The position numbers were made by a program, and so were the translations under genes. Below the pieces are notes generated by a model that saw only the letters and a program-made list of their open reading frames with translations, was not told where the DNA came from and did no database searches. Of a stretch of DNA of 64,000 bases, positions 2,586 through 58,342 are shown in pieces. Position 1 is the stretch's first letter. Each line of letters opens with the position of its first letter. The DNA comes from Pseudohongiella acticola (GTDB lineage: Bacteria > Pseudomonadota > Gammaproteobacteria > Pseudomonadales > Pseudohongiellaceae), in NCBI RefSeq assembly GCF_001758195.1, contig NZ_MASR01000001.1:1-64000 (forward strand), in the 5' to 3' direction.

Positions 2586-5500
2586 ATGCGTTTAAAAAGT
2601 ATCAAACTGGCTGGCTTTAAATCCTTTGTGGATCCCACAACGGTCAATTTCCCCAGCAATCTGGCAGCGGTCGTCGGCCCCAATGGTTGCGGTAAATCCA
2701 ACATCATCGATGCCGTGCGCTGGGTCATGGGCGAAAGCTCTGCCAAAAACCTGCGCGGCGAGAACATGACCGACGTTATTTTTAACGGCTCGGGCAATCG
2801 CAAACCGGTGGGTCAGGCCAGCATCGAACTGGTCTTCGATAACAGCGACAACCGCATCAAGGGCGAATACGCCAGCTTCGCGGAAATCTCCATCAAGCGT
2901 AAGGTCTCCCGCGACGGCACCAACATGTACATGTTAAACGGCACCAAGTGTCGTCGTCGTGACATTACCGATATTTTTCTGGGCACCGGTCTGGGCCCGC
3001 GCAGCTACTCAATCATCGAGCAGGGCATGGTTTCGCGCCTGATCGAGTCCAAGCCCGAAGAGCTGCGCATCTTCATTGAAGAAGCCGCCGGCATCTCCAA
3101 ATACAAGGAGCGTCGCCGCGACACCGAGAATCGTATCAAGCGCACGCGCGAAAACATGGAGCGTCTCACCGACATCCGCGACGAGCTCACGCGTCAGTTG
3201 GCACATCTACATCGTCAGGCGCAGGCGGCGGAAAAATACAAAGAATACAAGGCACAGGAGCGTGATCTTAAAGCACAGTATGACGCTTTGCGATGGCGCG
3301 CGCTGGACACCGAAGTGCAGTCCAAGCAGGGCGTGATCAAAGAGCTGGAGCTGCAGATTGAATCCGTGGTCGCCGACCAGCGCGGCCTGGACGCCAGGCA
3401 CGAAGAATTGCTGCTCAAGCACACGGATCTGAATGATGACCTCAGCGAAGTGCAGGGTCGCTACTACAGCCTGGGTGGCGATATCGCCCGTATTGAGCAG
3501 TCGATTGAGCACCACATCGAGCGCATGAAACAGCTGCGCCAGGATCTGGACGAGAACCAGCGCAGCTTTCAGCAGTCACAAAGTGAGGCTCAAGCCGACG
3601 TGCAAAAAATGGCGTCGCTGGAAGAAGAACTCACCGTTCTTGAGCCCGAACTGGAACTGGCCGAACACGCGCAGGAAGAGTCCGCCATCAAGCTGGAAGA
3701 ATCTGAAGAACAGATGCAGCAATGGCAGCAGACCTGGGATGAGTTCAGCCAGCGTTCGGAAGAACCCCGGCAACTGGCCGAGGTTGAGCAGTCACGCATT
3801 CAGCAGCTGGAAAAAATTGTCGAGCGTGGGGTAGAGCGGCGCACCCGACTGCGAGAAGAGCGACAGGGCCTGGGCGAAAACCCGGAGCAGGATGCCATCG
3901 ACGAGTTGTCCGTGCAGATCACCGCCATGGAAGATCAGCTCGACAGCAAGCAAACGCGCAATTCTGAGCTGGCCTCACAGATTGAACAGGAACGCGGCAA
4001 AGGCCAGCAACTGGGCAATGAGCTGGATCAGGCACGCAGCGAACTGCAGCGCCAGAAGGGCCAGTTTGCCTCGCTGGATGCGCTGCAGAAGTCAGCGCTG
4101 GGGCAGACCGACGACAAACTCAATCGCTGGCTGGCGGACAAGTCCCTGGATCAGGGCACACGCCTGGGCGAACGTATAAAGGTCGCAGCTGGCTGGGAGC
4201 CGGCCGTGGAAGCGGTGCTGGGCGATACCCTGCAAGCCGTGTGTGTGGATGCTCTGGATTCAGTGGCCGCAGCTCTGGCGGAATTGCCATCGGGCATGCT
4301 GTCGCTGCTGGAAACGGAAAAGAATGGGGACGCGACAAGTATGGGGACGGAGGAGATACTTTCTGAGAAAGTATCTCCTCCGTCCCCATACTTGTCGTCC
4401 CGATTAACTCCGCTCAGCGACAAAATTACCGCCGACTTTGATGTCAGCCCATTGCTGCAGGGCATCTATGTCGCCGAATCACTGGAGCAGGCACTGTCTG
4501 CGCGCAAAGCACTGACCGGTTCAGACTCTGTGGTCACGGCGCAGGGCCTGTGGCTGGGCCGCAACTGGATACGGGTGCGTAAATCCGTTGATGCCAGCGA
4601 AGGGTTGCTGGCCCGTAAAGGCGAAATGAGCCGTCTTGGCGAGCAGATGGAGATTTTGCAGGAACAGGCTGACGAGCTGCTGGAGAACCAGCAGGCCAGC
4701 CGCGATGCATTGCGCGATCTGGAAGCCGAACGTGAAAACGTGCAGCGCGAGATTGCCCAGGTCAGCCGTGAATACAGCGAGCTGAAATCCCGCCTCAGCG
4801 CCAAGATCATGAAGGAAGAACAGACCACCCAGCGCCGCCAGCGCCTGCAGCATGAGCTGGAAGAGCTGGAGAAGCAGCTGGAAGTGGAGCAGGAGAACAT
4901 TGCCCGCTCGCGGGAAAATCTGCAGAACGCGCTGGACGCTATGGAGCAGGACATTGAGCGTCGCGAAACCCTGATGCAACAGCGCGACTCGCTGCGTGGC
5001 AGTCTCGATCAGATTCGTCAGCAGGCCCGTCACGACAAGGATCACAGCCACCAATTGAGTGTGCGTGAACAGTTGTTGCGCTCGCAGATCAACTCGCTGC
5101 GCGAAACCATGTCGCGCATGAACACTCAGGTACAGCGCGCCAAAGAACGTATCGAGTCCATCGAGAATCAGCTCAACGAGTCTGACATGCCTCTGGAAGG
5201 CAAGCGCACTGAACTGGAGACCCTGCTGCAGAACCGGCTGGAAGTGGAAGACAAAATGAATGCAGCGAAAAAGGCTGCCGACGAAAATGAACACCAGTTG
5301 CGCGCGCTGGAGCAGGAGCGGGCCGGTTTCGAACGCAAGGCAGGCGGGCTGCGTGAGCAGCTAATGGAAAATCGCCTGAAAACCGAAGGTGATCTGGTCA
5401 AGCGTGAAGCCCTGTCCGAGCAGCTGAAAGAGGCGCGCTACGATCTGGACACGGTGCTGGGCAATCTGCCTGACGACCTGACTCAGCAGAGCTGCGAAGA

Positions 5501-6149
5501 TGAGCTGGAAGCCATCGGTAATCGTGTGCAGCGTCTTGGCGCCATCAACCTGGCGGCGATTGAAGAATACGAGCAGCAGTCCGAGCGCAAAGTGTATCTG
5601 GATGCCCAGAACGATGATCTGGACCGGGCGCTGGCCACTCTGGAAAACGCCATCCGCAAGATCGACCGGGAAACCCGTACCCGTTTCAAAGAGACCTTCG
5701 ACAAGATCAATGCCGGCCTGCAGGAGCTGTTCCCCAAAGTCTTTGGCGGTGGTCATGCCTACCTGGACATGACTGGCGAAGACCTGCTCGACACCGGTGT
5801 TGCCATCATGGCGCGGCCTCCGGGCAAGCGCAACAGCACCATCCACTTGCTGTCAGGCGGCGAGAAGGCAATGACCGCGATCGCGCTGGTGTTCTCCATC
5901 TTCCGGCTCAACCCGTCACCGTTCTGTATGCTGGACGAGGTTGACGCGCCGCTTGATGATGCCAACGTAGGGCGTTATGGTCGACTGGTAAAAGAAATGT
6001 CCGACACCGTGCAGTTTGTGTTCATCACGCACAACAAACTCACCATGGAGATCGCCAATCAATTGCTGGGTGTCACCATGCATGAGCCGGGCGTCTCCCG
6101 TATTGTGGCAGTAGATATAGAAGAGGCCGCCGAACTGGCGGCGATGTGA
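2586..6149 (+). CDS. smc: Chromosome segregation ATPase SMC
   Basis: A 1187-residue SMC that organises and segregates the chromosome with ScpA and ScpB. The N-terminal ATPase half has the Walker A motif GPNGCGKSN at about residues 31-39. Long Glu/Gln/Arg-rich coiled coils follow on both sides of a hinge around residues 520-650. The C-terminal half has the signature LLSGGEKA at about residue 1088 and the Walker B/D-loop MLDEVDAPLDDAN near 1115. The start MRLKSIKLAGFKSFVDPT is typical. It heads the smc-zipA-ligA order seen in pseudomonads and relatives. Unusually, a palindromic repeat and its outer half-motif are translated in frame at about residues 575-604, inside the hinge region ([17 protein letters not shown]). 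Confidence 0.97.
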   Translation: MRLKSIKLAGFKSFVDPTTVNFPSNLAAVVGPNGCGKSNIIDAVRWVMGESSAKNLRGENMTDVIFNGSGNRKPVGQASIELVFDNSDNRIKGEYASFAEISIKRKVSRDGTNMYMLNGTKCRRRDITDIFLGTGLGPRSYSIIEQGMVSRLIESKPEELRIFIEEAAGISKYKERRRDTENRIKRTRENMERLTDIRDELTRQLAHLHRQAQAAEKYKEYKAQERDLKAQYDALRWRALDTEVQSKQGVIKELELQIESVVADQRGLDARHEELLLKHTDLNDDLSEVQGRYYSLGGDIARIEQSIEHHIERMKQLRQDLDENQRSFQQSQSEAQADVQKMASLEEELTVLEPELELAEHAQEESAIKLEESEEQMQQWQQTWDEFSQRSEEPRQLAEVEQSRIQQLEKIVERGVERRTRLREERQGLGENPEQDAIDELSVQITAMEDQLDSKQTRNSELASQIEQERGKGQQLGNELDQARSELQRQKGQFASLDALQKSALGQTDDKLNRWLADKSLDQGTRLGERIKVAAGWEPAVEAVLGDTLQAVCVDALDSVAAALAELPSGMLSLLETEKNGDATSMGTEEILSEKVSPPSPYLSSRLTPLSDKITADFDVSPLLQGIYVAESLEQALSARKALTGSDSVVTAQGLWLGRNWIRVRKSVDASEGLLARKGEMSRLGEQMEILQEQADELLENQQASRDALRDLEAERENVQREIAQVSREYSELKSRLSAKIMKEEQTTQRRQRLQHELEELEKQLEVEQENIARSRENLQNALDAMEQDIERRETLMQQRDSLRGSLDQIRQQARHDKDHSHQLSVREQLLRSQINSLRETMSRMNTQVQRAKERIESIENQLNESDMPLEGKRTELETLLQNRLEVEDKMNAAKKAADENEHQLRALEQERAGFERKAGGLREQLMENRLKTEGDLVKREALSEQLKEARYDLDTVLGNLPDDLTQQSCEDELEAIGNRVQRLGAINLAAIEEYEQQSERKVYLDAQNDDLDRALATLENAIRKIDRETRTRFKETFDKINAGLQELFPKVFGGGHAYLDMTGEDLLDTGVAIMARPPGKRNSTIHLLSGGEKAMTAIALVFSIFRLNPSPFCMLDEVDAPLDDANVGRYGRLVKEMSDTVQFVFITHNKLTMEIANQLLGVTMHEPGVSRIVAVDIEEAAELAAM
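4310..4396. repeat. Palindrome copy B, in frame inside smc
   Basis: The palindrome spans 4334-4396: GACAAGTATGGGGACGG on the left and its exact complement on the right, with inner stem AGATACTTTC/GAAAGTATCT and a short TGA loop. The loop triplet is out of frame, so smc reads through. An outer half-motif (GAAACGGAAAAGAATGGGG) precedes it from 4311 and is almost the same as the sequence before the ligA copy. The insert adds about 30 residues to SMC. Confidence 0.92.
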
Positions 6150-6284: not shown

Positions 6285-6353
6285 GAAGTATGGGGACGGA
6301 GGGAATACTTTTTGATCAGTGCTCAAAAAGTATTCCCTCCGTCCCCATACTTC
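6285..6353. repeat. RAYT-type palindrome copy C
   Basis: A perfect stem between smc and zipA: outer GAAGTAT/ATACTTC, core GGGGACGGAGGG, inner GAATACTTTTT facing AAAAAGTATTC, loop GATCAGTGCTC. It sits 33 bp before the zipA start, so it may affect transcription entering zipA. Confidence 0.92.
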
Positions 6354-6386: not shown

Positions 6387-8813
6387 ATGGGTTTACGGGA
6401 ACTGCTGATTCTTATACTGATTCTGGCTATCGTGGTCGTGGTACTGCGAGGCCTGTATGTGGCATTGCGTTCCCGTCGCGGGCAGATAAAGATCGCGCTG
6501 GAAAAGAATATTCCCGAATACGACCTGGACGAGCTGGAAATGCGCGAATTGCCCAACGGCGGCGCGCGTATGGTCGGCCGCTCCTTCGCCGAAGTGCAGC
6601 GTCAGAATTCCGCGCATGCGGCCAAAGCCAATGCAACCGCCAGCGGCAAACCGTCTACGCTGCGCCCCGGCGCCCGGGGCCTGAAAACCAATCTGTCCCG
6701 ATCCGCCAGTCGCACAGCCCCGACAGCCGCGGCGGTGCAAAGCATCCCGGAGGCTGAAGAGACCGAGCATCACGACGATCCTCTGTTGATAGATGAAGGT
6801 CTCAATGCACAACAGGGCGTAACGCCTCAGCCCCGGCATGAAGATAACGACGATCCGGCCAGCTACGAACGTGAGCTGGTCGAAGATGAAACCCTCTTGT
6901 TTGACGAAGAACCCCTGGTCAACGTCGGCGACGGAAATTTTGACGAAGAAATGTTGTCAGAACCCGAAGAGATGGAAAAGACTTTAGCGACGGAAGAGCC
7001 CTCCGCGTATAAGGAGCCCTCAGCAGAGGAAGAGCCCTCAGCGAAGGAAGAGCCTTTAGCGAAGGAAGAGCCTTTAGCGGATAAAGAGCCCTCAGCGGAT
7101 GAAGAGCCTTCAGCGGAAGAAGAGCCAGCCGACGCTGAAGAGACCTCTGAAGCGGTATTCAGTTTTGTCGCCGTCAAGGACATCGATGACACCGACGCTT
7201 TCGAAGAGCAGGATGAACTCGACACCCAAGACGAGCGCAATGACGGCTATCAACCCGATGCCATGGACGACGACGTCTATAACACCGATGTGGACGATGA
7301 CAGCACAGATGGTGATGACGACAGCGCTTATGACAGTCCGAATGAAGGCCTGTATGACAGCCCGCACGATTCATTAGCCGATGTCAGTGTCGTCGACCGC
7401 CGTCCACGCAATGACGACGAACTGGACGACGTGCTGGACGAACTGCTGCAAAAATCCGTGGCACCGGAAACGCCAGCGCCGACCGTGCGGCAGGCCGGCG
7501 AATTGCCTGAGCCAGTGCTGACCTGGGACATGATGGCACAGGAGCCAGAATCCGAGCTCAAACCTGAACCAGAACCAGAACCAGAGCCAGTCCATTATGG
7601 CAATGATGATCCGCTGTTCGACTACACCGCCGGCGAAGACGAAACTGATGAACAAGACCGCACTCGGGATGAGGACCTGGATGAAAGCCCTGATGCTGAT
7701 TCGGATGACAGCCCAGGCAACATAGAAACAACCCAAAACCCGAACACTGATTCGCAGTCCGACCCGCATTCGGTCGAGGATGATATGCCAGATTTTGATG
7801 ATGAAACTATAGCCGATCCGAATCCACAGCCGGATGAACAGGATTCCTTTGCCGCACGCGGCAATGATGAGATAGACGTGCTGTTTGATGACGACGATCG
7901 CGAGCGCCGCATCGCCGCCCTGGAAGAGCAACAGGAGACCGCTTCCAAACGATTCATGTCCTGGGCCGGTGGTGCCTTCAGCCGGCTGGGAAGCAGCAAA
8001 ACCCAGGCCGGTAGTAAAGAGGCCGTTGCTAAAACAGAAGTAGAGCCGGTCGCCGATGATGAGGCCGAACGAAACCGAAAAGCAGACAAGAAAGCCCGCA
8101 AGAAGCTGGCCAAGGCCGAAAAACGGCAGGCACGCGAACAGGCCGAGCAAAATGCGGCAGCACCCGTTGATGATGTCGAGGACTACTTTGACGACGATGA
8201 TGGTGTGTCTGCGGTGCGTGAGCAGGAGAGACCTGGCGCTGCCGAAGGCAATACCAGCGCGCCACTCACTCAGAGTCAGCTTGATCTGGGCGACGCCAAC
8301 AGCGATGAAGACGCCTACTATAACGAAGAAGAGCAGGGCGAAGGCCACGAACAGGAACCGCCGGGTTACAGTGAGGTGTTGGTGATCAATGTGATGGCGC
8401 GCCCGGGCACTGAAATGCACGGCGACGACCTGTTGCCAGTGTTGATGAGCAGTGGCCTGAAGTTTGGCGAGATGTCGATTTTTCATTACCATACAGACAA
8501 GGTCGGCGGCCGTAGAAACGGGCCAGTCATGTTCAGCGTTGCCAATGCGCTGAACCCGGGCACTTTTGATCTTAACCGGATCAGTGAATTTGCTACGCTG
8601 GGTGTCTGTTTCTTCATGACCCTGCCCAATGTGGTCAATAACATGGTGGCCTTTGAGCAGATGCTGGCAACCGCTCGCAAAGTACAAGGGGCGCTGGACG
8701 CAGAGCTGAAAGATGACAATCGCTCTGTGATGACGGCGCAGACGGTGGAACATTATCGCCAGCGTATCCGTGACTTCGAGTTACAGGAATTAAAAAACGC
8801 CCGCTCACGCTAA
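6387..8813 (+). CDS. zipA: Cell division protein ZipA with a very long acidic linker
   Basis: ZipA anchors FtsZ polymers to the inner membrane at mid-cell. The N-terminus MGLRELLILILILAIVVVVLRG is a single membrane anchor with the N-terminus outside. The C-terminal FtsZ-binding domain occupies about residues 665-800 (EVLVINVMARPG, MFSVANALNPGTFDL, FFMTLPNV). Its place between smc and ligA is the standard one. At 808 residues it is more than twice the usual length of about 330. The excess is a linker rich in Asp, Glu, Ser and Pro, including six to eight imperfect EEPSA/KEEPLA units at about residues 202-248. Gene boundaries are firm, with ligA starting 13 bp later. Confidence 0.95.
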   Translation: MGLRELLILILILAIVVVVLRGLYVALRSRRGQIKIALEKNIPEYDLDELEMRELPNGGARMVGRSFAEVQRQNSAHAAKANATASGKPSTLRPGARGLKTNLSRSASRTAPTAAAVQSIPEAEETEHHDDPLLIDEGLNAQQGVTPQPRHEDNDDPASYERELVEDETLLFDEEPLVNVGDGNFDEEMLSEPEEMEKTLATEEPSAYKEPSAEEEPSAKEEPLAKEEPLADKEPSADEEPSAEEEPADAEETSEAVFSFVAVKDIDDTDAFEEQDELDTQDERNDGYQPDAMDDDVYNTDVDDDSTDGDDDSAYDSPNEGLYDSPHDSLADVSVVDRRPRNDDELDDVLDELLQKSVAPETPAPTVRQAGELPEPVLTWDMMAQEPESELKPEPEPEPEPVHYGNDDPLFDYTAGEDETDEQDRTRDEDLDESPDADSDDSPGNIETTQNPNTDSQSDPHSVEDDMPDFDDETIADPNPQPDEQDSFAARGNDEIDVLFDDDDRERRIAALEEQQETASKRFMSWAGGAFSRLGSSKTQAGSKEAVAKTEVEPVADDEAERNRKADKKARKKLAKAEKRQAREQAEQNAAAPVDDVEDYFDDDDGVSAVREQERPGAAEGNTSAPLTQSQLDLGDANSDEDAYYNEEEQGEGHEQEPPGYSEVLVINVMARPGTEMHGDDLLPVLMSSGLKFGEMSIFHYHTDKVGGRRNGPVMFSVANALNPGTFDLNRISEFATLGVCFFMTLPNVVNNMVAFEQMLATARKVQGALDAELKDDNRSVMTAQTVEHYRQRIRDFELQELKNARSR
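6988..7127 (+). repeat. Tandem EEPSA-coding repeat within zipA
   Basis: Imperfect 15-18 base units encoding EEPSA, KEEPLA, DKEPSA and similar peptides are repeated in tandem in the acidic linker of ZipA. Units such as GAAGAGCCCTCAGCG and GAAGAGCCTTTAGCG differ mostly at third positions, which suggests slippage expansion followed by drift. Confidence 0.8.
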
Positions 8814-11023
<2,210 letters not shown>

Positions 11024-11758
11024 GTCTTGCGTGGTTGGCCGGGTCGCAGTCGACCAATTATTAGGCCATATTTTTTCTTTAGTACTTTCTTGTACCGGTT
11101 GTCGGCCACGGGCTGACAACAATGTGCAGCGCTGCGAATCAATGTCAATTGATGCTTACTGACAGGTTTATTAAATAGGCGGAGGTAAGCTTCACGCCGT
11201 GCCACAGCAGATTCACCCAGCGCGAGAAACTCTGTATGGGGTTGCATCCATCCGTCAGCACCGAGCGCATTTTCCTTGAAGCTCGACCACCTGTAGTGCT
11301 CGGGGTCTGTCACGATTGAGGCGCGCACTGGATTGAGTTCTATGTAGCGCTGGCAGGTCAGGAAATACCGCTGGGTCTGCACCAGACTGGCGCGATGACG
11401 TCCCTCCCACAGCGTGCCGGTGCGGTTATATTTTTGATTGATGTAGCGGGCATAATTGCTGCCAACAATACGGGTAACCCAGGAGACACCGTCATCGCGA
11501 TACGGTGTCAGAAGAAAATGCACATGATTGCTCATCAAACAATACGCATGGACATGCACATCATAGATGCTGGCATTAATCCGCCACTGTTTGAGGTAAA
11601 AGGAATAGTCAGCATCTTGCAGAAAACAGCGCTGACGATTATTGCCGCGTTGAACAATGTGATATGGCATTCCCGCCACGTAGTGACGCGCACGTCTGGG
11701 CATAGCAAACTCCTTTTGCTAAGTGCATTTCTTCAAAGAGTATAGACAATGCGGCGCC

Positions 11759-11843
11759 GGTTTTTATGGGGACGGAGTGAATATTTTTTGATCATTGGCT
11801 AAAAAGTATTCACTCCGTCCCCATAAAACCGTCCCCATAAAAG
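11759..11843. repeat. Palindrome copy F, upstream of RAYT gene, with tandem half
   Basis: A GTGAAT-subtype palindrome at 11760-11829 with loop GATCATTGGCTA, nearly the same as copy E. The outer stem GGTTTTTAT/ATAAAACC differs by one T. Its right end CCGTCCCCATAAAA is repeated directly at 11830-11843, so a second half-motif follows. Confidence 0.92.
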
Positions 11844-12485: not shown

Positions 12486-12544
12486 ATGGGGACGGAGGGA
12501 ATACTTTTTGATCAGTGGTCAAAAAGTATTCCCTCCGTCCCCAT
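12486..12544. repeat. RAYT-type palindrome copy G
   Basis: A palindrome between two divergent genes with arms ATGGGGACGGAGGG and the complement, inner GAATACTTTTT/AAAAAGTATTC and loop GATCAGTGGTC. The outer flanks (GTTT left, TCTT right) do not pair, unlike most copies. It lies 20 bp upstream of the acyltransferase start. Confidence 0.92.
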
Positions 12545-12564: not shown

Positions 12565-14562
12565 ATGGCACCTTCAGCAGACACAGGTTTCAGATACGAC
12601 ATAAATGCGCTGCGCGCGCTGGCAGTGCTGCTGGTGCTGCTGTTTCACTTCCGGGTGCCCGGATTCAGCGGCGGCTTTATTGGCGTTGATGTGTTTTTTG
12701 TCATTTCTGGCTACCTGATGGCGGCGGTCATCGTCACCCGCCTGCAGGCGCAAACATTCGGGCTGGGGCGCTTTTATCTGGCCCGTGCCAAACGGATTGT
12801 GCCAGCAATGGCCGCGCTCATCTGCACATTGCTGGTGATTGGCTGGTGGTCGCTGCCGCAAAGCGATTACCGCGAACTGGCCTCCAACAGTGTCTACGCC
12901 CTGAGTTTTATCGCCAATATCCGCTTCCAGCGCGACGCCGGTTATTTTGCTCCGGCGTCCCACGACAACTGGCTGCTGCATACCTGGTCGCTGGCTGTGG
13001 AAGCACAGTTTTATCTGCTATTGCCGCTACTCATCCTGCTGGTCTGGCGATTCAGGCCCGGCCAACGCCCTCTGCTTTTGGTTATTGCCACCGCGCTGCT
13101 GATTTCCCTGGCGCGTTCAGCCTGGCTGGCATACAACAGCCCCGACAGCGCCTTCTTTCTGTTACAGAGCCGTGCCTGGCAACTTCTATCCGGCGCCGCC
13201 GTGTTTCTTTGCAGTCAGTACCGGTTTGTCAGCATCGCGCAACGATATCCGCGTCGAGTCAGCGCTCTGGGTCTGGTACTGATTCTGGGAACAGCCGTGA
13301 CGGTGGATGCCGCCACAGTCTGGCCAGGACTCTTTGCCATCGCCCCAGTCGTCGGCACTGCGCTGATCCTGATGATTGCCCGACAATCGGCCTGGATGCA
13401 GCTTGCCCCACTGCATTATCTGGGGCTCAGCTCGTACTCCATTTATTTGTGGCACTGGCCCGTATTTGTCGCGCTGGCCTTCATCGGCATGGCCAATAAT
13501 GTATTCGCCATCATCGTTGGTATGGCCGTTGCGATCGGACTCGGACTGTTCTCCTGGCGCCTGATTGAAAACCCCACGCGCAGCAGCACTAGACCAGGTC
13601 TGGTGCTTGCATTGATCATGCTGGGTACACTGACACCGGCGATATTGATCTATCAGCAACAGGGAATTCCCGGCCGACTGGCACCTGATGTGGAGATCGC
13701 CGCGGCCGAGGCGCAGAACTATGACAGCAGGCGAGGGCAGTGCCTGGCTCGCAACGGTTTCGATTTCCCCTGGTGTCAGTATGGCGGCGACGACATTCGG
13801 GCCATTGTGATCGGTGACAGCCACGCCGGCGCCATCTTCACTGCCGTTGCTCGCGCGGCGCAACTTGCAACCTCAGCAACTGATGTTGCGAACCCAAATG
13901 CCGGCGTCCGGGCCAGCGGATACAACAGCTGCGCAACCTTGCAGGACGGCAACAGCGTCAACAATACCGATGGCTGCCGCGCCTTTAATCAATTCCTGCG
14001 CGATCAAATGCAGACGTTGCCTGCTAGCATTCCCGTGATCATCGTCAACCGCAGCAGCGTCTACCCGCTGGGCAGCGCAGTAGCAGAGAACAGCGATTTC
14101 CGGCGACCACTGGTTTATTACCAACGGCCCCAGTCCCGACCCAGTGCACAGCTGACGGAACAATACAGCCAGGATCTAATTGCCACCGCCTGCCACTTTG
14201 CCGAGCAGAGGCCGGTCTATCTGCTGCGACCGATCCCGGAAATGCAGGTGGATGTACCACGCACCATGGCCCGCCGTCAGTTGCTCAATCGCCCCAGTGA
14301 GGTCAGTATCAGCCGTGCCGATTACCAGGAACGCCACGCCGCCGTCTGGCGAGCGCAGGATGTTGCCGTGCAGCAATGCGGCGTGCAGGTGTTGGACCCC
14401 ACGCCCGCTCTGTGTGACAGCGAGCGCTGCTATGGCAGTGAAAACGGCCGGCCGCTGTATTACGACGAAGACCATCTGTCAGAATTCGGCAACAAGAAGC
14501 TGGTGCCTGTGTTTATGGGGATTTTGGGGGACGGTTATGGGGACGGAGGGAATACTTTTTGA
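12565..14562 (+). CDS. Acyltransferase-3 / SGNH-domain O-acyltransferase
   Basis: A 665-residue integral membrane protein of the OafA/YrhL type, which moves acetyl or other acyl groups onto surface polysaccharides. The N-terminal half has the family opening FRYDINALRALAVLLVLLFH and GFIGVDVFFVISGYL, then about ten membrane segments. The C-terminal half is a periplasmic SGNH-like domain with AIVIGDSHAGA as its nucleophile block and YYDEDHLSEFGNK as the Asp-His block. I chose the ATG at 12565, preceded by GGGGCAGGG; the 19 codons upstream lie in palindrome copy G. Its final residues YGDGGNTF and stop are encoded by copy H. It stands just before the polysaccharide regulators and may modify that polymer. 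Confidence 0.9.
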   Translation: MAPSADTGFRYDINALRALAVLLVLLFHFRVPGFSGGFIGVDVFFVISGYLMAAVIVTRLQAQTFGLGRFYLARAKRIVPAMAALICTLLVIGWWSLPQSDYRELASNSVYALSFIANIRFQRDAGYFAPASHDNWLLHTWSLAVEAQFYLLLPLLILLVWRFRPGQRPLLLVIATALLISLARSAWLAYNSPDSAFFLLQSRAWQLLSGAAVFLCSQYRFVSIAQRYPRRVSALGLVLILGTAVTVDAATVWPGLFAIAPVVGTALILMIARQSAWMQLAPLHYLGLSSYSIYLWHWPVFVALAFIGMANNVFAIIVGMAVAIGLGLFSWRLIENPTRSSTRPGLVLALIMLGTLTPAILIYQQQGIPGRLAPDVEIAAAEAQNYDSRRGQCLARNGFDFPWCQYGGDDIRAIVIGDSHAGAIFTAVARAAQLATSATDVANPNAGVRASGYNSCATLQDGNSVNNTDGCRAFNQFLRDQMQTLPASIPVIIVNRSSVYPLGSAVAENSDFRRPLVYYQRPQSRPSAQLTEQYSQDLIATACHFAEQRPVYLLRPIPEMQVDVPRTMARRQLLNRPSEVSISRADYQERHAAVWRAQDVAVQQCGVQVLDPTPALCDSERCYGSENGRPLYYDEDHLSEFGNKKLVPVFMGILGDGYGDGGNTF

Positions 14563-14607
14563 TCAATAGCGCAGAGACTGATCAAAAAGTATTCCCTCCG
14601 TCCCCAT
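14515..14607. repeat. Palindrome copy H, 3' end of acyltransferase gene
   Basis: The palindrome at 14537-14607 has the GGAATAC inner stem and an enlarged centre, TTTTTGATCA and TGATCAAAAA separated by 11-13 bases. It provides the last codons and TGA stop of the acyltransferase. A weaker ATGGGG half-motif lies 22 bp upstream at 14515. Outer flanks do not pair. Confidence 0.9.
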
Positions 14608-15551: not shown

Positions 15552-15617
15552 GCGATTTATGGGGACGGAGGAGATACTTTTTGATCAAAAAGTATCTCCT
15601 CCGTCCCCATAAATCGC
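15552..15617. repeat. RAYT-type palindrome copy I
   Basis: A perfect palindrome of the AGATAC subtype: GCGATTTATGGGG...CCCCATAAATCGC with centre TTTTTGATCAAAAA. It begins three bases after the rfaH stop and precedes the ops element, so it is well placed to end the regulator transcript. Confidence 0.93.
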
Positions 15618-47970: not shown

Positions 47971-48038
47971 AGAATGGGGACGGAGGGAATACTTTTTGAC
48001 CATTGGTGGTCAAAAAGTATTCCCTCCGTCCCCATTCT
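47971..48038. repeat. RAYT-type palindrome copy J
   Basis: Arms AGAATGGGGACGGAGGG and complement, inner GAATACTTTTT/AAAAAGTATTC, centre GACCATTGGTGGTC which itself is self-complementary at its ends. It follows the exported-protein stop and could terminate its transcript. Confidence 0.93.
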
Positions 48039-49464: not shown

Positions 49465-49554
49465 AGAATGGGGACGGAGGGAATACTTTTTGACCAGCAG
49501 TGGTCAATAAGTATTCCCTCCGTCCCCATTCTCAGCCATTCTCACCGTCCCCAT
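49465..49554. repeat. RAYT-type palindrome copy K with extra half
   Basis: The palindrome at 49465-49532 has arms AGAATGGGGACGG and complement, with a slightly broken right inner arm (AATAAGTATTCC). A further half-motif CACCGTCCCCATTCT follows at 49543-49557. It lies between two convergent genes and the AEC stop codon abuts the extra half. Confidence 0.9.
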
Positions 49555-51673: not shown

Positions 51674-51737
51674 GCAATAATGGGGACGGAGGGAATACTT
51701 TTTGCTCAAAAAGTATTCCCTCCGTCCCCATTATTGC
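51674..51737. repeat. RAYT-type palindrome copy L
   Basis: Perfect arms GCAATAATGGGGACGGAGGG and complement, inner GAATACTTTTT/AAAAAGTATTC and a small GCTC centre. It lies between the divergent phospholipase-type gene and cysQ. The outer extension GCAATA/TATTGC is unique to this copy. Confidence 0.93.
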
Positions 51738-51780: not shown

Positions 51781-52563
51781 ATGCCAGATAATCCGTTGCT
51801 TGGCAATCGCGCTGAGCTGCTGAACATACTCACCCAGGTGGCCCGGGATGCGGGACGCGTCATCATGGCAATTTACGCCACTGACTTTGCGGTGCGGGAC
51901 AAGGACGATGAATCGCCGGTGACCGAGGCCGATGAGAAAGCGGAGCAGGTGATTGTGACGGCGCTGCGCAAGTTGACGCCGACTGTGCCGGTCATCGCCG
52001 AAGAAGCCATGGCGGCGGGGCATGGTGAGTCGGTCGGGGCGATGTTCTGGCTGGTGGATCCGCTGGACGGTACGCGTGAGTTTGTTAATCGAAACGGTGA
52101 GTTCACCGTGAACATTGCCTTGATCGAAAACGGCGTTCCGGTGCTGGGTGTGGTGTATGCCCCGTTTCTCGATCGACTGTTTGCCGGTGCCACTGGGCAG
52201 GGTGCATTTGTGGTAGAAAGTGACGGGCAGCAACGTCGGATTTCCACACGGGAGGTGCCGGACGCCGGTCTCACTGTGGTCGCCAGTCGCCTGCATGGTG
52301 ACCCGCAGGCGCTGCAGGATTTTCTCGGCGAACGAAAAGTTGCCGAGATGCGCAGCGCCGGTTCGTCCTTAAAGATCTGTCTGATTGCCGCTGGCGAGGC
52401 GGATCTGTATCCACGTTTTGGCCGCACCATGGAATGGGATATCGCCGCTGGCGATGCAGTGCTGCGTGCGGCCGGGGGGCGGCTGACCGATGTTGATGAA
52501 AAACTGATGGGTTACGGCAAGCCTGAATTTGAGAACCCGAATTTTGTCGTGTGGGGGCAGTAA
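51781..52563 (+). CDS. cysQ: 3'(2'),5'-bisphosphate nucleotidase CysQ
   Basis: A 260-residue inositol-monophosphatase-fold enzyme that removes the 3'-phosphate from PAP (and PAPS), clearing the by-product of sulfation and sulfate assimilation. It shows DESPVTEADEKAEQVI, IAEEA, the metal site WLVDPLDGTREFVNRNGEFTVNIALIE and FGRTMEWDIAAGDAVLRAAGG. It is convergent with cysC, with palindrome copy M between the stops. PAP recycling also relates to the sulfotransferase gene further on. Confidence 0.95.
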   Translation: MPDNPLLGNRAELLNILTQVARDAGRVIMAIYATDFAVRDKDDESPVTEADEKAEQVIVTALRKLTPTVPVIAEEAMAAGHGESVGAMFWLVDPLDGTREFVNRNGEFTVNIALIENGVPVLGVVYAPFLDRLFAGATGQGAFVVESDGQQRRISTREVPDAGLTVVASRLHGDPQALQDFLGERKVAEMRSAGSSLKICLIAAGEADLYPRFGRTMEWDIAAGDAVLRAAGGRLTDVDEKLMGYGKPEFENPNFVVWGQ

Positions 52564-52631
52564 GAATGGGGACGGAGGGGATACTTTTTGACCAGCATTG
52601 GTCAAAAAGTATCCCCTCCGTCCCCATTCTT
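52562..52631. repeat. RAYT-type palindrome copy M between cysQ and cysC
   Basis: Arms AAGAATGGGGACGGAGGGG and complement with inner stem GGATAC/GTATCC, a subtype seen only here, and centre GACCAGCATTGGTC. The cysQ stop (52561-52563) and the cysC stop (52631-52633) touch its two ends, so it fills the whole space between convergent genes and is a likely two-way terminator. Confidence 0.93.
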
Positions 52632-58267: not shown

Positions 58268-58342
58268 GAATGGGGACGGAGTGAATACTTTTTGACCAGT
58301 AGCCTCGCAACTGGTCAAAAAGTATTCACTCCGTCCCCATTC
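58268..58342. repeat. Palindrome copy N, 3' end of TPR-sulfotransferase gene
   Basis: A GTGAAT-subtype palindrome with centre GACCAGTAGCCTCGCAACTGGTC, longer than in other copies. On the minus strand it supplies the last residues NGDGVNTF and the stop of the TPR-sulfotransferase (stop at 58315-58317). These are the same residues that end LigA. Confidence 0.92.

Follow-up and report, generated by a model that had tools for sequence, protein, structure and literature searches.

A palindromic repeat lies in frame within the SMC hinge gene region

The stretch of Pseudohongiella DNA that we analysed (64 kb, hereafter the window) carries smc, the gene for a chromosome segregation ATPase, as an intact open reading frame (ORF) of 1187 amino acids on the plus strand (2586–6149; 1129.5 bits against TIGR02168, cut-off 567.35). 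It is followed on the plus strand by zipA (6387–8813) and by ligA (8826–10985), which encodes an NAD-dependent DNA ligase of 719 amino acids, and on the minus strand by a gene for a Y1 (IS200-like, HUH) transposase of 236 amino acids (10993–11703; 48.4 bits against PF01797, cut-off 23). Inside smc, in the part encoding the hinge, lies a perfect palindrome of 65 bp with 32-bp arms and a 1-nt loop (4333–4397, no strand), which is read in frame as SMC residues 583–604. A first-pass annotation of this DNA had proposed that a palindrome of a repeat family stands in frame within the SMC hinge, and this is borne out, as are its statements that the TGA within the centre TTCTGAGAAA is out of frame and that intergenic copies have other centres. 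Its estimate of about 30 added residues was too high: the palindrome encodes 22, and the net gain relative to the SMC of a close relative without the tag in this loop (G011; genomes are given by such handles, the source genome being G000) is 12. Immediately to the left, the outer half-motif AATGGGGACG (4323–4332, plus strand) is probably the relic of an older element, of which CGTCCC on the right (4396–4401, plus strand) may be the other end. As RNA, the segment 4320–4410 is predicted to fold with −69.2 kcal/mol (z −15), a stability reached by none of 200 shuffled sequences; an Rfam search of the window returned no match.

A structure prediction for the hinge, suggested in the first-pass annotation, is confident around the loop that holds the palindrome and not within it. 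Block means of pLDDT are 91–96 on either side of the loop and 55–71 over SMC residues 575–604, with values of at least 90 for 120 of the 186 residues modelled and lower ones again near both ends of the modelled piece. The predicted fold matches SMC hinge structures (best match 5h69; TM-score by query 0.65, rmsd 5.9), and the model suggests that the loop is flexible. The loop is variable also among SMCs without the element. Residues 575–604 had been put forward as a clean insertion; alignment instead shows a rewritten loop, in which most relatives have palindromes of their own. The result that the first-pass annotation named as a refutation, the same residues at this place in relatives without the repeat, was not seen: the residues of G009, G011 and G012 differ from those of the source. 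A KNGD shoulder at the loop is common to G000 and its close relative G003.

Further copies lie in ligA and around its neighbours

A second in-frame palindrome, with 26-bp arms, is found in ligA (9593–9654, no strand), where it encodes LigA residues 256–276 in the part for the adenylation domain. Neither this copy nor the following one figures in the first-pass finding on smc. The latter (10960–11018) supplies the C-terminal residues and the stop codons both of ligA (KNGDGVNTF) and of the convergent transposase gene (KYGDGVNIF), and a palindrome of the same GTGAATA subtype lies on the other flank of the transposase gene (11762–11828). The spacer between smc and zipA holds an intergenic palindrome (6285–6353); the same spacer has other palindrome subtypes in G003 and G013, and no element in G011. 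We found no element inside the zipA gene of the source genome; a long acidic linker in its product contains imperfect repeats of the EEPSA/KEEPLA type.

The remaining copies in the window lie in intergenic DNA or at the edges of ORFs. Three are intergenic, one with 33-bp arms and no loop (15552–15617) and two others at 47971–48038 and 49465–49532. One, at 2414–2473, precedes smc and coincides in part with the 5′ end of a divergent ORF; another, at 51674–51737, is within a predicted ORF, near its N-terminus. Each probably lies upstream of the real start of that ORF. A copy on an ORF edge (12486–12544) was taken as intergenic, one touches an ORF end and is otherwise intergenic (52562–52631), and two are at ORF ends (14537–14607 and 58268–58342). 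On the contig concerned (C1 of the source genome), 17 of 27 copies lie near smc and ligA, no more than 80 kb from the contig start, a descriptive figure that was computed after the cluster had been seen.

A dispersed and mostly intergenic family

We defined the family by exact matches to the tag GGGGACGGAG followed, after no more than 60 bases, by CTCCGTCCCC, with the reversed pattern as control. The source genome has 33 such matches. Because the reversed pattern has none across all 15 genomes of the genus, the family is beyond what chance would give. Matches, 25–76 bp long among those listed, are present in 13 of the 15 genus genomes, with 4 to 73 in each positive genome, which is few for a REP family. 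The two genomes without them differ from one another: G001 has 66 palindromes with GGGGTCGGAG and none with GGGGACGGAG, and G012 has palindromes of neither kind. Four genomes (G002, G005, G006 and G014) have 2 to 15 copies of the GGGGTC type alongside the usual tag. Of 119 genomes of the bacterial family, 29 have matches: the 13 genus genomes and 16 from beyond the genus. Thirteen of these 16 have 1 to 5 copies, and the other three have 16 (G041), 11 (G113) and 10 (G119).

Three genomes were scanned in full, and 8 of their 92 innermost exact copies lie inside recognisable genes (copies in total: G000, 32; G003, 25; G013, 35), a count that covers exact palindromes with both full tags, misses half-elements and scores copies that merely touch an ORF end as outside genes. 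The eight are in smc (once in each genome) and in ligA (once in G000, twice in G003 and twice in G013). Ten more copies in these genomes overlap the N-termini of ORFs or lie in ORFs of no known or tested family; we took them, by eye and not from annotation, as upstream of the real start or in spurious ORFs, and one of the ten precedes a recognised domain. At least one reading frame is open in each of the 32 G000 copies examined, with a mean of 3.9 of the 6 frames.

Partial scans of two further genomes found in-frame copies in other genes, namely, in G008, in a gene for an Lhr-like helicase (between DEAD and Helicase_C), in one before its CheW domain and in zipA (far from the ZipA_C domain), and, in G014, in a Beta-Casp hydrolase gene (between Beta-Casp and RMMBL). 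We therefore dropped the idea that smc and ligA are the sole targets, since the genes for the helicase, the hydrolase and the CheW protein and zipA are hit as well.

Most genus members have an element in the same loops

The SMC hinge loop contains the tag in 11 of 14 genus SMCs (G000, G001, G002, G003, G004, G005, G007, G008, G010, G013 and G014), and none of these SMCs has an internal stop; no tag was found in the loops of G009, G011 and G012. Among the 28 genomes searched, G006 and G019 gave no SMC match, so that G006 is left out of this count, and G007 is counted as occupied with part of its palindrome hidden by an N-run of 180 inside the loop. Two loops of LigA are occupied to a similar extent: loop A contains the tag in 10 of 15 genomes (G000, G001, G002, G003, G004, G005, G006, G010, G013 and G014), and loop B contains it in 9 of 15 and in G008 holds GGGGACGTAG, which differs little from it, giving 10 of 15 occupied (loop B of G005 ends at a contig end). 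In six genomes (G001, G002, G004, G005, G006 and G010) the ligA copies consist of the left half and lack the right tag. Outside the genus, the tag is absent from the whole smc ORF in all 79 distinct smc genes inspected, which comprise 12 members of the order and 70 named loci, three genomes being in both sets and the named loci coming from the best 80 of 264; this whole-ORF check was used in place of a hinge-anchored view, which could judge 45 of the 80 named loci. On an SMC tree built with the loop left out, occupancy requires three changes, and one gain with two losses fits without being proved.

The tags are translated in three frames, as NGDG, as MGTE or LGTE, and as WGRR, and because three frames are used the encoded peptide seems not to be conserved. 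As a separate observation, one clade has, in both ligA loops, the left half only, consisting of the tag and GATCAAAAAATGATC or a near version of it. We also note assembly gaps or contig ends on or near elements in the smc loop of G007, on contigs C19 and C26 of G014 and on the ligA contigs of G004 and G005; automatic assemblies may therefore under-report coding copies.

Each species has its own version of the palindrome

Comparison of the stems (the 9 bases after the tag) at four sites (smc loop, smc–zipA spacer, ligA loops A and B; 7 species entered, 24 site-species cells) gave a mean similarity of 0.687 between sites of one species (31 pairs) versus 0.442 at the same site between species (61 pairs), and permuting species labels within sites reached the observed value in 0 of 5000 trials. 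All four sites of G003 share GCAATACTT, and three of the four in G013 have GGATTTAGC. The exceptions are the smc copies of G000 and G013, which both have GAGATACTT, and the ligA halves of G001 and G002, which both have GGATCAAAA. In G001 the smc and ligA loops have the changed tag GGGGTC. Such species-specific stems imply either that standing sites receive new copies or that copies are homogenised within a genome.

Nesting of one copy in another, as in the smc gene of G014, does not serve as a general explanation, for outer tags on both sides were found in just 12 of 152 innermost copies by a strict tag test, and in 0 of 32 in G000. The arms also extend into flanks that are specific to each copy: in G000 the extension is 5.73 nt with a copy's own partner flank versus 1.72 nt between copies. 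The same symmetry is seen in G003, G007, G013 and G014, which with G000 makes five of seven genomes, and hardly in G002 (2.20 versus 1.79) or G006 (2.86 versus 2.81). These flanks look more like an inverted than a direct target duplication. Hairpin-templated copying of one arm is a possible source of them.

A Y1 transposase gene adjoins ligA

The gene at 10993–11703 is, judged from its sequence, a relative of the REP-associated tyrosine transposases; the HVH motif is visible (...MSNHVHFLL...), and the score against the model for that group, NF047646, is 63.7 bits, below the cut-off of 80. A sequence search of solved structures with this protein gave no match. In 8 of 15 genomes (G000, G001, G002, G004, G006, G008, G010 and G014) a Y1 gene of this type is next to ligA on the same contig, and G003 has one on another contig than ligA. 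Seven of these nine loci (G000, G001, G002, G003, G004, G006 and G014) are flanked on either side by a tag no more than 400 bp away; the locus of G010 has one on one side only, and that of G008, where the gene is short (149 amino acids), has none on either side. In the other six genomes (G005, G007, G009, G011, G012 and G013) no such gene was found, only a longer Y1 gene of another type. Copy number is higher with the gene than without it (9 versus 6 genomes, Mann–Whitney p = 0.029; the group without it includes G005, which is highly fragmented, with about 700 contigs). Copies do occur in genomes without such a gene (28 in G007, 16 in G011, 36 in G013, and 20 plus 15 in G005). We infer that the neighbouring transposase probably moves the palindrome.

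Discussion

The explanation that we favour, with a probability of about 80%, is that a selfish, transposase-associated palindrome persists in permissive loops and is swapped there for the active version of each species; both its mobility and the mechanism of replacement are what we infer from the comparisons above. The palindrome would be a copy of a non-autonomous mobile element of the TIR type (TIRYT/TIRtron), with ends tagged by GGGGACGGAG and a variable middle. Such copies would insert at many places, and selection would keep those in genes where the loop is permissive and where length and frame leave the gene open, the sequence of the element being one that may tolerate translation. A loop once occupied would stay a landing place, in which newer copies replace older ones or nest in them, so that the encoded peptide would follow the currently active version of the species and need have no function. 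As to a stronger form of this idea, we see even chances that the SMC hinge and the two ligase loops are standing docks, where the active version takes over from the copy in place, whether or not the tag has changed. If so, these parts of SMC and LigA would change together with the repeats of the genome and not with the gene.

Several observations do not sit easily with a mobile element. The transposase falls short of the NF047646 cut-off, G007, G011 and G013 have many copies without such a transposase gene having been found in them, and the transposase loci of G010 and G008 are flanked on one side and on neither. Nesting accounts for few copies, and copy-specific symmetric flanks are not expected of a simple cut-and-paste element. 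A competing explanation, to which we give somewhat less than an even chance, is that a single ancient insertion in smc and in ligA was inherited vertically and that gene conversion or hairpin-templated correction, not new insertion, has homogenised the copies of each genome. The occupancy of the SMC tree can be read in this way, with one gain after the split of G012 and two losses sufficing for its three changes, and so can the KNGD left shoulder common to G000 and G003; the copy-specific outer arms, which are often perfectly self-complementary, fit the copying of one arm from the other, and the half-elements in ligA of G001 have the changed tag as well. What speaks against this competing explanation is that close relatives can have wholly different stem types at one site (in ligA, GGATTTAGC in G013 versus GAGATACTT in G000) and that the phase of the tag at the same loop differs among close relatives.

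It is improbable, in our estimate, that the host retains the palindromes of smc and ligA for some benefit, such as an mRNA hairpin slowing translation from one domain to the next or a DNA hairpin near the transposase through which the operon is regulated. High occupancy (smc in 11 of 14, each ligA loop in 10 of 15), a very stable hairpin and the position of several copies at domain boundaries would suit such a role, against which stand the tagless smc loops of G009, G011 and G012, the ligA left halves of six genomes, with which no long hairpin remains, and the use of three reading frames. An error of sequencing or assembly, which the first-pass annotation had raised as a possibility, is very unlikely indeed because tags stand in frame at the same loop in the named records of seven genus genomes. 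Palindromes do break assemblies, the N-run of G007 lies exactly inside the smc loop, and ligA of G014 is split across two contigs at a copy; the source copy, however, lies within a 2.8-Mb contig with its frame open, and the in-frame copies at the same place in other genomes of the genus are different ones.

Palindromes in protein genes are best known from Rickettsia, an obligate intracellular group in which their movement is hard to study. The Rickettsia palindromic elements (RPEs) are described as 100–150 bp long and as lying in frame within ORFs, in solvent-exposed regions (PMC10969869, PMC3767692), with a conserved encoded peptide (PMC10969869), and for R. japonica, RPEs of different groups are reported from one and the same site, or close to it, in orthologous genes (PMC3767692). 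The palindromes studied here resemble RPEs in entering ORFs without loss of frame (PMC10969869, PMC3767692), and differ in their length of 25–76 bp, in the use of three frames, in that we saw no conserved peptide, and in the adjacent transposase gene. The first-pass annotation had held that in-frame palindromes are known mainly from Rickettsia, a view that needs widening, as Di Nocera et al. (2013; PMC3733652) list REPs of the GTAG and CGTC types inside genes of several species. According to that paper, intragenic REPs are often in DNA repair genes, including the DNA ligase gene of O. terrae, and recB of two Xanthomonas species has different REPs at about the same site (PMC3733652); its main text has no mention of smc. 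Our copies are like these intragenic REPs in lying in frame in a DNA ligase gene and in differing between species at about the same site (PMC3733652), and unlike them in having the tag GGGGACGGAG at both ends and no enrichment of GTAG. Identity with GTAG-type REPs was rejected on that last ground: GTAG or CTAC is found no farther than 15 nt from an end in 2 of 32, 1 of 25 and 2 of 35 copies, compared with 1754 of 24000, 1405 of 18000 and 2677 of 32000 random positions. The family does share with REPs that its palindromes are many, dispersed and mostly intergenic.

REPINs are paired GTAG-REPs. Those of Pseudomonas and E. coli are short hairpin repeats with a TnpA(REP)-type transposase (PMC3116915, PMC8266576), to which extent they are like our elements; here there is one long palindrome with a species-specific stem, found also in essential genes. 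Separately from the intragenic REPs, PMC3733652 describes tyrosine transposases flanked by TIRs, and 20 of 26 described TIRYTs are placed in subclass 2.1, which holds RAYT group 1 (PMC6006769). Our family is like TIRtrons (PMC3733652) in its Y1/HUH gene between inverted repeats, its moderate abundance and dispersal, and its GGGG-rich motif. The consensus GGGGWSAS is given for some TIRs only (PMC3733652), and GGGGACGG fits it at seven of eight positions, so that the consensus is not matched. Unlike the TIRtrons described there, the family has in-frame copies in smc and ligA genus-wide, the intragenic elements listed in PMC3733652 being GTAG and CGTC REPs, not TIRs. In the open-licence literature we found neither the combination seen here nor a paper on palindromic elements for Pseudohongiella; searches there on the tag and on TIRYT terms gave REP and HUH papers alone as relevant among the matches listed.

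Protein-coding palindromes are thus already known, from Rickettsia and as intragenic REPs, and those described here are a different variant of them. A comparable event is now seen across a genus outside Rickettsia, in genomes that include isolates (LSUCC0112 and Pseudohongiella sp. O18) and not just metagenome bins, with a likely transposase gene beside the targets and with filled and unfilled loops in close relatives. That setting makes two questions testable: by what route REP-like palindromes are dispersed, and whether parts of essential proteins can be rewritten again and again by selfish DNA. As a minor observation, a 26-bp copy elsewhere on contig C1 of the source genome (2533461–2533486) lies between runs of A and T at a gene end, in the manner of a two-way terminator.
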